A stretch of DNA of 64,000 nucleotides from Gemmatimonadaceae bacterium. GTDB taxonomy: Bacteria > Gemmatimonadota > Gemmatimonadetes > Gemmatimonadales > Gemmatimonadaceae. The stretch lies in contig WYBP01000017.1 of assembly GCA_011525845.1 (NCBI GenBank), positions 186,001 through 250,000 on the forward strand, written 5' to 3'. Made by a program: the position numbers and the translations under genes. The notes under the pieces are model-generated. The model worked only from the letters and a program-made list of their open reading frames with translations, made no database searches and had not been told where the DNA came from. Shown here in pieces: positions 13,398-48,812 of this stretch. Position 1 is the stretch's first letter; every line of letters starts with the position of its first letter.

Positions 13398-13463
13398 AGG
13401 TGGGAGAGGGGAGATGGGAGGTGTGAGAGCGCCCCCTCACCTCTCCCATCTCCCCTCTCACCT
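13398..13463. repeat. Heptad repeat element A, inverted pair
   Basis: Four phased 7-mers GTGGGAG, AGGGGAG, ATGGGAG, GTGTGAG at 13400-13427, a GC-rich spacer, then four reverse-complement 7-mers CTCACCT, CTCCCAT, CTCCCCT, CTCACCT at 13436-13463. The arms pair almost fully, so either transcript would fold into a stem of about 28 bp. The element begins 11 nt downstream of the fatty-acid-hydroxylase stop and ends about 40 nt before the etfB start. Same unit family as five other loci in this window. Confidence 0.9.
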
Positions 13464-13474
13464 CTGCCGTTCAT

Positions 13475-14785
13475 TCACATCATCGGCGCCAGTTCCGTCC
13501 GCGTCAGTTCGGCGCGGTACCTGGTGAGCACCCCGAGCGATGCCAGCGCGAAGAGGATCGCCGCTCCGGCCGCGGTGGCGGGGACCACGCCGGTGGCGAG
13601 CAGCACCCCCGCGACCCCCGCCAGCACCACGAGCCGCGCGGTCTCGAGCGTCGCCGCCCAGCGCGCGCCCTCGAACACGCCACCCACACCCGCCAGCGCG
13701 ATCGCCACGTAGAACGCGGCCGAGGCACTCTGCACGACCGGCAGCGAATCAGCACGTCCCAGCAGCACGACCGCGGCCGCGAGCGTCACGGTGAACTGGG
13801 TGAACCCGTACCACGCCAGCGGCGCCCGCACCGGCGGGTCGTACTTCTCGAACGTGGCGGCACTCACCTCTCCCGGCCGCTCACTCTCGCCGAGCTCCGG
13901 CGGCTGCCACCCGGGCCGCCCGAACACGATGCGGAGCTTGTGCCGCCACCCCTCGGCGCGCCACGCGTCGCGCGCGATCTGCACGAAGACGTGCACGTTC
14001 GCCCAGAGCGGGTTCCAGCTCCTGAGCGGCTTGGTGATCCCGTAGACCGGCTCCTGCGCCTCGGCGGTGAAGGTGCCGAAGAGCTTGTCCCAGACGATGA
14101 ACACGCCGGCGTAGTTCCGGTCCTGGTACTCCGGGTTCACGCCATGGTGCACGCGATGGTGCGAGGGCGTGTTCATCACCGCCTCGGTCCAGCGCCCGAG
14201 CCGCCCCACCGCGCGCGTGTGGATCCAGAACTGGTAGACGAGGTTGATCGCGTTGCACGCGACGAACATCCGCCACGGGACGCCGGCCAGCGCGAGCGGG
14301 ATGTAGAAGACCCAGGACATCAGCCCGTGCAGCGCGCTCTGCCGGAGTGCCACCGGCAGGTTGTACTCCTCGCTCGAGTGGTGCACCACATGCCCCGCCC
14401 AGAGGATGTTCACCTCGTGCGCGTAGCGATGCGAGAAGTAGTAGGCGAGGTCCACCAGCACGAAGACCGCGGCCCAGCTGAGCAGCGCGGGCATGTCAAC
14501 CGTGAACCCCGGGAACGCCCCGGCCGCGCCGAACGGTTGCCGCTCGGGCCAGTGCGGGAGCGCCTCGACGAAGCGCTGCGCGGCGAGGTGCCGCTCCGCC
14601 AGAATGTAGATGCCGATGCTGAAGAACTTCGTGAAGACGCCGGCCAGCTGGCTGATGACGCCGAGGCTGAGGTCCGAGATCGCGTCGTTCAGGCGCAGCA
14701 CGTGGGGCGCGCGCCAGCGGCTCCACGCCAGTTCCAGCGCGATGAGCAGGAAGAAGAGCGGGATGGAGGCCTGGATGATGTCCAT
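13475..14785 (-). CDS. Sterol desaturase / fatty acid hydroxylase family membrane protein
   Basis: 436 residues; a di-iron membrane enzyme family that hydroxylates or desaturates lipids. Histidine boxes: HRYAHEVN, HVVHHSSEEYN and TPSHHRVHHGVNPEY, between hydrophobic helices. After about residue 290 there is an extra hydrophobic domain of roughly 140 residues (four helices) beyond the usual family length. Start ATG 14785 leaves only 24 bp to the divergent SDR gene; longer in-frame readings upstream are shadow. The lipid substrate is unknown; proximity to the acyl-CoA oxidation genes may be meaningful. Confidence 0.88.
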   Translation of the reverse strand: MDIIQASIPLFFLLIALELAWSRWRAPHVLRLNDAISDLSLGVISQLAGVFTKFFSIGIYILAERHLAAQRFVEALPHWPERQPFGAAGAFPGFTVDMPALLSWAAVFVLVDLAYYFSHRYAHEVNILWAGHVVHHSSEEYNLPVALRQSALHGLMSWVFYIPLALAGVPWRMFVACNAINLVYQFWIHTRAVGRLGRWTEAVMNTPSHHRVHHGVNPEYQDRNYAGVFIVWDKLFGTFTAEAQEPVYGITKPLRSWNPLWANVHVFVQIARDAWRAEGWRHKLRIVFGRPGWQPPELGESERPGEVSAATFEKYDPPVRAPLAWYGFTQFTVTLAAAVVLLGRADSLPVVQSASAAFYVAIALAGVGGVFEGARWAATLETARLVVLAGVAGVLLATGVVPATAAGAAILFALASLGVLTRYRAELTRTELAPMM

Positions 14786-14804
14786 CGCCCCGGAATAGTA
14801 GATT
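14776..14804 (+). promoter_or_regulatory. Possible leaderless promoter for the SDR gene
   Basis: TAGATT at 14799-14804 is a good -10 hexamer and lies 6 nt before the GTG start at 14810, the spacing expected when transcription begins at the start codon. A weak -35 match TGATGT is at 14776-14781 with 17 nt between. It overlaps the start of the divergent hydroxylase gene. No Shine-Dalgarno sequence precedes the GTG. Confidence 0.4.
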
Positions 14805-14809
14805 ACCGC

Positions 14810-47029: not shown

Positions 47030-47176
47030 GTATCCTGGGGCGAAACGGTGGGAATCAATGCATCGCGACAACTGCCTACTTTCTGCACGGTCTCCCCGGC
47101 GAGCCCCAACCCAGGATCCCTCCCTGTCTCCAATCTTGTCAGTTCCGGCCCCTAAGGGCAAGAAAATGGTCCTGCA

Positions 47177-48775
47177 TCACTCGCCGAATTCGTCCGGAAC
47201 CTGGTACTCCTTGAGCTTTCTATAGAGCGTGCGCTCACCTATGGCTAGGATCTCGGCAGCTTTACGACGATTACCCCGCGTTTCCCGCAACGCCGCCAGC
47301 ACCGCCTCCTTCTCGATCTCGGCCATGGTCATCCCGGGGGTGATCGTCACCGTGTTGGCCGGGACGGACGCCCCCGGAGGCTCGATCCCACCGGGCAGGG
47401 CGCCCGCCGCCAACCCGTAGCCACTCCCTGGGAACCCGGCGGGCATCAGGCTCCCCCCCGGCCCGGCGACGCCCACGCCCGCCGTGAGCACCTGCTGCAA
47501 CATCGCACGGTCGTCGTCCACCTGCCGGCGCAGCTCCTCCAGCTGGAGCTTCACCTCCACCAGGCTCCGGACGATGAACTCGAGCTCCCGCCCCTCCGCC
47601 CGGCCCTCCTCACGGTGGATCGGCCCCATCGGAACCGGGAGCAGGCGGTCCGCCCCACCCTCGCGGATCCCCTTCGGGATATCCTCGACCCCGATCTCGC
47701 GCCCCGTCGCCAGCACCACCATGCTCTCCACCAGGTTCCGGAGCTCGCGGACATTCCCCGGCCAGGAGTACGCGACGAGCGCCTGCATCGCCTCGCTCGA
47801 GATGCCGTGGAACTCGCGATCATGCTCCTCCGAGAACTCCTGCACGAACCGGCGCACGAGGAGCGGGATGTCCTCCCGGCGCTCGCGGAGCGGCGGCAGG
47901 TAGATCCGCAGGACGTTCAGCCGGTAGTAGAGGTCGGGCCGGAAGTGCCCCCGCTGCACCCCCTCGCGCAGCGGTCGGTTGGTCGCGGCCACCACCCGCA
48001 CATCCACCGGGATGGCCTGCGTCCCGCCCACCCGCGTCACCTCCCGCTCCTCGAGCACGCGCAGGAGCTTCACCTGCGTGCTCGGGGGCACGTCGCCGAT
48101 CTCGTCGAGGAAGAGGGTGCCGCCGTCCGCGAGCTCGAAGCGGCCGATCCGCCGCTCCGCCGCGCCGGTGAACGAGCCCTTCTCGTGGCCGAAGAGCTCG
48201 CTCTCGAGCAGCGTCTCGGGGAGTGCGCCGACGTTCACTGCGATGAACGCCTTGTTCCGCCGCGGCGAGAGCTTCGCGATCGCGCGCGCGACGAGCTCCT
48301 TCCCCGTCCCGCTCTCCCCCTCGATCAGCACGGTGCTCGAGACCGGCGCCATCTGCTCGATCGCCACGAGCACCTCGCGCACCGCCTCGCTCTCCCCCCA
48401 CAACCCGGTCTCGCGCGTGATGCGCAGGCGCTCGAGCGCCTCGTTCACGGTCGCCCGCAGCGCGTCGGGCGTCACGGGCTTGGTGAGCACCTCGGAGAAG
48501 CCGAGCGACTTGAGCTTCTGCTCGAGGCGCGGGTCGCCGACGTCGGCGAGGCCGATCACCGTCGCCCCGCCCCAGAGCTGGTCCCGCACGAGGCCGAGCG
48601 TCTGCGGGTCGAGCAGCGCGCCCGTGAAGACGATCACGTCCGGCTTCGCCTTCCGCACCTCGCGCGGGAGGTCGTCCATCGGCGAGACGACGAACGTCTT
48701 CACGCCGTCCGCCTCCAACAGTGCGTTGAGGCGGACGGCGGGTTCGACGTCGGTGAGGGTGATCAGGACGGACAA
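47177..48775 (-). CDS. NtrC-family sigma-54 activator with degenerate receiver domain
   Basis: 532 residues from TTG 48775. Residues 1-115 form a receiver-like domain: the phosphoacceptor Asp position at the end of beta-3 reads IVFTG (Thr51), so it probably cannot be phosphorylated, though the TKP Lys remains. AAA+ sigma-54 domain: Walker A GESGTGKE (153-160), GSFTGA loop at 200-205 (GAFTGA variant), Walker B GTLFLDEIGD. A C-terminal Fis-type helix-turn-helix (ETRGNRRKAAEILAIGERTLYRKL). Acts as an enhancer-binding activator; the signal is unknown. Heptad element F is immediately upstream. Confidence 0.92.
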   Translation of the reverse strand: MSVLITLTDVEPAVRLNALLEADGVKTFVVSPMDDLPREVRKAKPDVIVFTGALLDPQTLGLVRDQLWGGATVIGLADVGDPRLEQKLKSLGFSEVLTKPVTPDALRATVNEALERLRITRETGLWGESEAVREVLVAIEQMAPVSSTVLIEGESGTGKELVARAIAKLSPRRNKAFIAVNVGALPETLLESELFGHEKGSFTGAAERRIGRFELADGGTLFLDEIGDVPPSTQVKLLRVLEEREVTRVGGTQAIPVDVRVVAATNRPLREGVQRGHFRPDLYYRLNVLRIYLPPLRERREDIPLLVRRFVQEFSEEHDREFHGISSEAMQALVAYSWPGNVRELRNLVESMVVLATGREIGVEDIPKGIREGGADRLLPVPMGPIHREEGRAEGRELEFIVRSLVEVKLQLEELRRQVDDDRAMLQQVLTAGVGVAGPGGSLMPAGFPGSGYGLAAGALPGGIEPPGASVPANTVTITPGMTMAEIEKEAVLAALRETRGNRRKAAEILAIGERTLYRKLKEYQVPDEFGE

Positions 48776-48779
48776 CTTT

Positions 48780-48812
48780 GGAGGTGTGAGGGGGGAGGTG
48801 GGAGGTGTGAGG
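48780..48812. repeat. Heptad repeat element F, single arm
   Basis: Four exact-phase units GTGTGAG, GGGGGAG, GTGGGAG, GTGTGAG at 48784-48811, between the gcvT stop (48821) and the NtrC-like start (48775), both on the minus strand. No inverted partner. It fills nearly the whole 45-nt gap and lies in the ribosome-binding region of the TTG start. Confidence 0.9.

Follow-up and report, generated by a model that had tools for sequence, protein, structure and literature searches.

Phased heptamer arms at gene ends of a Gemmatimonadaceae genome, spelled differently in related species

Heptameric short tandem repeats dispersed through intergenic space are a familiar feature of filamentous cyanobacteria (the short tandemly repeated repetitive, or STRR, sequences); their unit sequences differ from the one described here, and we know of no box or bracket arrangement in them. 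Repetitive extragenic palindromic (REP) elements and REPINs, which go with the RAYT transposases, are short intergenic palindromic families that also form inverted pairs. Here we consider arrays of in-phase heptamers of the form RKGKGAG in a 64,000-nucleotide stretch of a Gemmatimonadaceae bacterium (positions 186,001 to 250,000 of contig WYBP01000017.1, assembly GCA_011525845.1; hereafter the window) and in the 3.58 Mb, 25-contig genome to which the window belongs (G000). The arrays form arms that sit at gene ends, often as inverted pairs, and at some of the same gene junctions related species carry arms built from other heptamers. Unlike REP and REPIN elements, they consist of tandem heptamers and enclose a core that is specific to the locus, and no Y1 transposase was found in G000.

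Two published cases allow a closer comparison. Intergenic heptamers of the sequences GGGAATC in Xanthomonas and GGGGA(C/T)T in Nostoc PCC 7120, in runs of about four units and in Xanthomonas also as inverted pairs, were explained by G-quadruplexes, with their function left open (PMC4692102). Going by the part of that paper considered here, the likeness extends to in-phase 7-nt units, intergenic position, polarity relative to gene ends, a number of about four units and inverted pairing; the present arrays differ in unit sequence, in having a flanking box, in that a GGG tract is not part of every unit, and in that related species hold different units at the same junction. The TAACTGA direct repeats of marine Beggiatoaceae, in a paper that also cites a 7-nt slippage idea, are alike in forming many dispersed, mostly intergenic heptamer sets scattered over phyla (PMC4679880). 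In the passages that describe them, however, they lie mostly just upstream of start codons, include one inverted case and keep to a single fixed unit, variants of it being seldom repeated. An earlier sequence-only reading of the window had likened its arrays to heptameric repeats elsewhere, and this is borne out by the same type in Xanthomonas, Nostoc and Beggiatoaceae. The kind of repeat is therefore already known; what is new is the within-genus dialects at shared junctions, the conserved box and the absence of a general capacity to form quadruplexes (3/63 arms). No description of such repeats in Gemmatimonadota appeared among the literature matches listed (open-licence papers), and term look-ups in PMC4060949 and PMC4666352 returned no Gemmatimonas and no heptamer or heptanucleotide.

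Three in-phase RKGKGAG units are matched 84 times on the forward and 93 times on the reverse strand of G000 (177 overlapping matches), and the reversed pattern, used as a control, is matched on neither strand (0+0). The sequence-only reading had named two refuting outcomes, runs confined to the window or runs no more frequent after stops than elsewhere, and neither was obtained. Arm anatomy was studied in 850 kb of G000 including the window (about 24% of the genome), of which contig C12 and the start of C3 were unselected and the remainder lay mostly around listed matches; because the sample was partly picked around known matches, its densities are biased upward, and its position tests are not. 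It contains 48 sites, 20 of them in the unselected 430 kb that was searched first, and 66 arms with three or more units. The period itself is specific: at lag 7 the 75.5 kb between genes yielded 52 events and the 774.5 kb of coding sequence 3 (33 against 2 in a stricter count), the eight other lags examined (4, 5, 8, 10, 11, 13, 16, 17) gave 6 intergenic events in sum, and lag 14, the harmonic of 7, gave 25. Read from the outside in, an arm consists of a box close to GAAC[GT]GCAG, mostly three or four units and often a GGAAC, with a length of about 40-45 nt. The final G of the box is present in 98% of arms and its remaining consensus bases in 50-78%. Three units are found in 25 of the 66 arms (those with fewer being excluded), four in 34, five in 4, six in 2 and eight in one. 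There are 26 inverted pairs (at least two units on each side and at least three on one) around a core of 7-69 nt that differs by locus, and in 13 of them the core alone folds at -12 kcal/mol or better.

These features bear on one alternative, in which the arrays are neutral heptanucleotide satellites: polymerase slippage would favour 7-nt units, the arrays would survive only in harmless spots by gene ends, and hairpins would be a by-product. The published idea for the excess of heptamers is slippage with a 7-nt footprint, cited in both PMC4679880 and PMC4692102. Slippage alone, though, gives neither a single unit family at dozens of loci (the 48 sites in 850 kb) nor a common box, a fixed polarity or a non-random order of units. 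The order of units along an arm is non-random both from the outer end (p=0.0005) and from the inner end (p=0.0075), and a common 28-mer joins 10 pairs of loci, against 3.8 after shuffling within arms (maximum of 1000 shuffles, 11). Non-random order and recurring 28-mers are better accounted for if whole arms are copied than if each locus slips independently. We regard the satellite explanation as a possible one that is rather doubtful, and return to it below where further evidence touches it.

Arms keep to gene ends with a defined orientation. Genes were called with an in-house caller of open reading frames based on codon usage, and some gap contexts may err (the arm at 15697 was convergent in one run and tandem in another); 3 of the 48 sites were flagged as lying inside a called gene. 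For 62 of the 66 arms (four without placement in a called gap were omitted), a gene boundary lies no more than 25 nt from the outer end in 47 cases and from the inner end in 5. Random placement over all gaps gives 10.0 arms within that distance (maximum of 2000 trials, 21), and random placement inside the same gaps 19.8 (maximum 31). The enrichment just after stops is real, with 31 of the 62 arms within 25 nt of a stop codon against 4.3 at random. Starts are involved as well: when the 65 arms with genes on both sides are reduced by the 2 inside called genes, 33 of the resulting 63 face a stop (32 of them within 25 nt) and 30 face a start (16 within 25 nt). With the outer end turned to the gene, the G-rich strand is sense after a stop and antisense before a start. 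Gaps of at least 40 nt are occupied in 30 of 196 tandem, 9 of 40 convergent and 5 of 83 divergent cases (44 of the 48 sites used; divergent against the others, p=0.016). Arms also occur beside tRNA genes predicted by ARAGORN: one stands between the tRNA-Tyr and tRNA-Gly genes, 11 nt past the former (L011:1501-1521; G000 C1:115071), another between tRNA-Arg and tRNA-Pro genes in G294 (L043:1501-1521), and a third 8 nt past a tRNA-Gln gene (L208:3531-3607). What had been described as placement after stop codons is thus really placement at gene ends.

A position after stops, the occupied convergent gaps and the well-folding cores in half of the inverted pairs (one with a T-tract, 39572-39598) would suit intrinsic or bidirectional terminators made of stacked heptamers, a role that the sequence-only reading had listed. 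As a general role this is not supported: TTTT follows within 20 nt of only 1/66 arms, one array separates atpB from atpE, which share a strand, and single arms sit in tandem gaps of 45 and 58 nt. Where termination is likely, the enclosed core would bring it about and not the arms. We therefore consider terminators improbable as an explanation of the family.

The spelling of the unit changes from species to species. The comparison covers 13 genomes of the genus, one per species, and counts three-unit matches on both strands. RKGKGAG has 177 matches in G000, 60 in G087, 12 in G205, 5 in G073, 2 in G248 and 1 in G128; TNGTRAG has 53 in G004 and 1 in G128; RNYGGAT has 62 in G073 and 16 in G087; TYGGNAG has 18, all in G128; and GGATGNN has 64 in G073, 28 in G205, 22 in G087, 14 in G004 and 1 in G188, every other count being 0. 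GGATGNN ends in AC throughout in 60/64 of the G073 matches, mostly in AA or GA in G205 and G004, and in a mixture in G087. By these counts G087, G205, G073 and G004 hold more than one unit family. Controls with the reversed pattern gave 0 in almost every row, apart from counts of 1-8 in G188, G290, G170, G385, G087 and G205; a broad pattern, KGAGNNKKGAG, had high reversed controls in G087 and G128 and was used for G073 alone (control 0). Despite their unlike units, the arms of G000, G004 and G128 have a common box close to AC[GT]GCAG. Few or no arrays of the tested families are present in 7 of the 13 genomes. The array-bearing genomes (G000, G004, G073, G087, G128, G205) measure 3.1-4.1 Mb and the array-poor ones mostly 1.8-2.3 Mb, yet G182 has 3.5 Mb. 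Contig C1 of G073 carries a further type beside its GGATGAC family, GGGAG units paired 32 nt apart (e.g. 123726/123758, 316137/316169 and 695091/695123).

This variety speaks to the idea of regulatory G-quadruplexes, proposed for Xanthomonas and Nostoc and raised for the G-rich arms by the sequence-only reading. The arrays agree with those of PMC4692102 in where they lie, in polarity, in the length of the unit and in the number of units preferred. Four G3 tracts with loops of up to 7, however, occur in only 3/63 arms, and GGG is missing from TNGTRAG, GGATGAC and GGATGRA, units of the relatives that nonetheless stand at shared junctions, though TTGGGAG of G128 does contain it. Quadruplexes are, on this evidence, a highly improbable basis for the arrays.

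Beyond the genus the trait is patchy. RKGKGAG was matched in 37 of 395 genomes of the phylum, and one stretch from each of 20 phylum genomes (341 kb in total) gave a single lag-7 event, no excess over the other lags (0-2 each). A phylum-wide habit of period 7 was rejected on these 20 stretches. Patchy occurrence, with no lag-7 excess in the 20 stretches, is what slippage satellites would also produce. In G012, from another family, 100 kb chosen around listed matches contains eight intergenic lag-7 arrays in several spellings. Units of the reversed control pattern, GAGKGKR, occur often in the phylum genomes G241, G176, G225, G222 and G031 (up to 29+27), where they are probably further dialects. 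Outside the phylum, RKGKGAG-type units are abundant in single genomes, among the matches listed: Chamaesiphon (L221, L243, L257) and Pirellulales/Pirellulaceae (L203, L226, L233) with 38-113 per strand, and Halomonas olivaria (L240) with 27+55. At the few loci viewed, Chamaesiphon has other heptamers alongside (ATTGGAG, TTACTCC). The same unit pattern in other phyla may reflect convergence or transfer.

Arrays of different spelling tend to occupy the same junctions. A first comparison gave 3/6 array junctions against 1/49 others; it was rerun with more G004 and G128 sequence and somewhat looser ortholog thresholds, and the larger test is used here; it covers 64 junctions conserved in one or more relatives, each gap being read with 12 nt of flanking sequence at either end. 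A period-7 array in a relative was found at 5/8 of the G000 array junctions and at 2/56 of the others (p=1.4e-4), or 10/30 against 2/184 when counted per cell. If G000 gaps shorter than 40 nt are set aside, 5/8 against 2/19 remain (p=0.011), and among the control lags 5, 6, 8, 9, 10, 11 and 13 only 10 and 11 hit, once each and both times at an array-free junction. An array of G004 at C12|123 (TGGTAAG, TAGTGAG, TTGTAAG, TCGTAAG) was sub-threshold and scored negative; its GGCAG box, orientation and four units are as in G000. The 31056 junction has a GGATGAC array in G073, 43 nt without an array in G004 and no gap in G188 and G028; the 48784 junction has other heptamer arrays in G073 and G087, 35 nt without an array in G004 and a gap of 0-1 in G128, G188 and G248. 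Gaps of 0-1 at array junctions in some relatives are compatible with slippage satellites. At C12:165473 the gap is 169 nt in G000 against 17 nt in three relatives, which reads as a clear array gain in G000.

One such junction lies between atpB and atpE. Atp genes allowed the comparison in 11 genomes in which atpB was found: a period-7 hairpin stands directly 3' of the atpB stop codon in six (G000, G004, G128, G073, G087, G205), with spellings that all differ, and no array is present between the two genes in G248, G290, G028, G188 and G170. An array is thus tolerated between atpB and atpE. Across the six species the mean duplex of the two arms is -50.6 kcal/mol within species and -31.7 kcal/mol across species, and of the 720 possible assignments of arms the true one is best. 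Arms that pair within each species once the spelling has changed are not accounted for by slippage alone. We read these data as a hairpin that persists while its letters do not.

Any explanation has to accommodate a period of 7, position and polarity at gene ends, a genome-wide family, differing spellings, shared junctions and the within-species pairing at atpB-atpE. We tentatively prefer one in which arms are copied by a putative process, homogenised in each genome and kept as 3' or intercistronic RNA hairpins, which would not be general terminators. The copying process would spread arms and homogenise the unit within a genome, and 7-nt slippage would adjust the number of units. Downstream of the stop codon the transcript would then fold back on itself as a long hairpin, and inverted pairs would be retained because it does so; with folding kept as an RNA element, the letters would be free to drift. 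Such a hairpin could serve as an intercistronic or 3'-end element of stability or processing, shielding the upstream message and possibly cut by RNase III. That the RNA hairpin protects or processes transcript ends is what we infer from sequence.

A related alternative keeps the copying and drops the function: a mobile family resembling REP elements or miniature inverted-repeat transposable elements (MITEs), moved by an identifiable transposase and without a role for the host. Conserved boxes, inverted pairs, intergenic dispersal, 28-mers common to several loci and the gain in G000 relative to three relatives are all as such a family would have them. Of the two enzyme families tested, however, Y1_Tnp (PF01797) has 0 matches in G000 (5/14 control genomes have it) and the RVT_1 reverse transcriptase has none (3/14 control genomes have it); no target duplication was seen by eye, and several pairs join arms of different sub-types. 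Such a family is unlikely. RAYT and reverse transcriptase, considered as copying engines, were rejected, neither being found in G000.

Several observations weigh against the preferred account of copied arms kept as RNA hairpins. First, its copying step is without known machinery, given that no Y1 transposase or reverse transcriptase was found and that no target-site duplication was noticed by eye at the inspected sites, where no systematic test was made and the boxes are in inverted orientation. Second, 20/63 arms are single, with no partner arm; the hairpin formation seen by the sequence-only reading holds for part of the arms. Third, the sharing test comprises 8 array junctions only, and the atp junction alone gives 5 of its 10 positive cells. 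Fourth, pairing at that junction is not exclusive: the left half from G000 reaches -60.1 with the right half from G087 against -59.1 with its own, and the arms of G087 belong to two different unit families and still pair (-41.5). Finally, among the 18 G000 pairs with at least three units on both sides, the likeness between partners (0.849) does not significantly exceed that between arms taken from different sites (0.835; p=0.21, or p=0.10 with another alignment), and pairs fold no better than with a swapped partner (9/18). The absence of clear covariation among arms within G000 favours slippage satellites. The share of A-type units does correlate between paired arms (r=0.52, p=0.03, n=18), and a dialect common to a genome would leave most of its arms able to pair.

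A more speculative version of the preferred account, which we think unlikely, holds that something reads the dialect. A factor devoted to the arms, either a protein or an RNA and with a 7-nt periodicity, would both recognise and propagate them, and their spelling would co-evolve with it. If true, replacement of the unit at dozens of loci, with spacing, polarity and pairing kept, would amount to concerted evolution of transcript-end marks; we know of no counterpart to such a system.

Within the window, two in-phase RKGKGAG units are matched 18 times against 0.04 expected from dinucleotide shuffles, and re-reading of the sequence finds all six of the arrays first described (Table 1). The description of their parts needed revision. 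Units of the form [AG]TGKGAG are present; the true unit is wider, [AG][TG]G[TG]GAG. Reverse-complement partners, claimed at four sites, are clear only at three (13398, 36113, 39546), the left side of the array at 15644 being G-rich and without phased units. A distance of 6-19 nt from a stop codon is true of all six, but the arms at 31056 and 48784 are single and turn their outer end to the next gene's start codon. The lone GTGTGAG at 16973-16979 is indeed a single heptamer without an array. Overlooked in the sequence-only reading were the flanking box, the polarity to gene ends (starts too) and the differing units at shared junctions.

Table 1. Heptamer arms and associated features in the window (positions counted from its first nucleotide).
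Feature	Position	Strand	Context or basis
Left arm, 4 units (GTGGGAG AGGGGAG ATGGGAG GTGTGAG)	13400..13427	+	Pattern scan and shuffles
Right inverted arm, 4 units then outer box CTGCCGTTCA	13436..13463	-	Outer end 11 nt from stop of minus-strand gene ending at 13475
Arm, 4 units	15697..15724	-	Outer end 6 nt from stop of minus-strand acyl-CoA dehydrogenase gene (15731-16963)
Single arm with CTGCAG box	31056..31076	+	58-nt gap, two tandem minus-strand genes
atpE gene	35730-36002	minus	Pfam
Partner arm of atpB-atpE hairpin	36121..36141	+	Two exact units at 36121-36134, third with one mismatch to 36141
Main arm of atpB-atpE hairpin, 4 units, CTGCAG box	36198..36225	-	Directly after atpB stop codon
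atpB gene	36234-37211	minus	Pfam
Left arm, 3 units	39549..39569	+	7 nt past stop of BsuPI-domain gene ending at 39541
Terminator-like stem GGCGGCCGA/TCGGTCGCC with TTTTT, between two arms	39572..39598	+	Own sequence reading; not among the terminators listed by a terminator scan
Right inverted arm, 3 units	39627..39647	-	
Single arm, 4 units	48784..48811	+	45-nt gap between minus-strand GCV_T gene and sigma-54 activator gene

A separate conserved structured RNA adjoins the atp array, at 36003-36111 on the minus strand, directly before atpE. Comparison of 11 genomes shows both partners altered in 12 of its 23 pairs, where shuffles give 5.1 (0 of 500). Pairing amounts to 98.8% and drops to 35-46% when the partner is slid along. 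Of 150 phylum genomes, 55 are matched at E <=0.001 by a model of this RNA, 54 of them in single copy (six of the 55 being sources of the model); its position before atpE was examined within the genus. Rfam at gathering score has 0 matches in the window, arrays and this RNA included, and the 15 sub-threshold matches around the atp array are nearly all microRNA-type hairpins. We regard the RNA as a candidate new atpE leader. A cyanobacterial ATP-synthase leader motif is known; a phrase search of the literature gave no paper on it.

For intergenic heptamers elsewhere, quadruplexes or slippage have been offered as explanations, and function is not established in the parts considered of PMC4692102 and PMC4679880. 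The present arrays have a common period and polarity, some common junctions and hairpins with unlike units, and this argues against either quadruplexes or slippage as a full account. The question becomes testable: what copies an arm of about 40 nt to dozens of gene ends, respelled in other species? If the hairpins set the ends of messenger RNAs or their ratios within operons (e.g. atpB against atpE), they would form a layer of gene expression that changes quickly, in a phylum that has been little studied.

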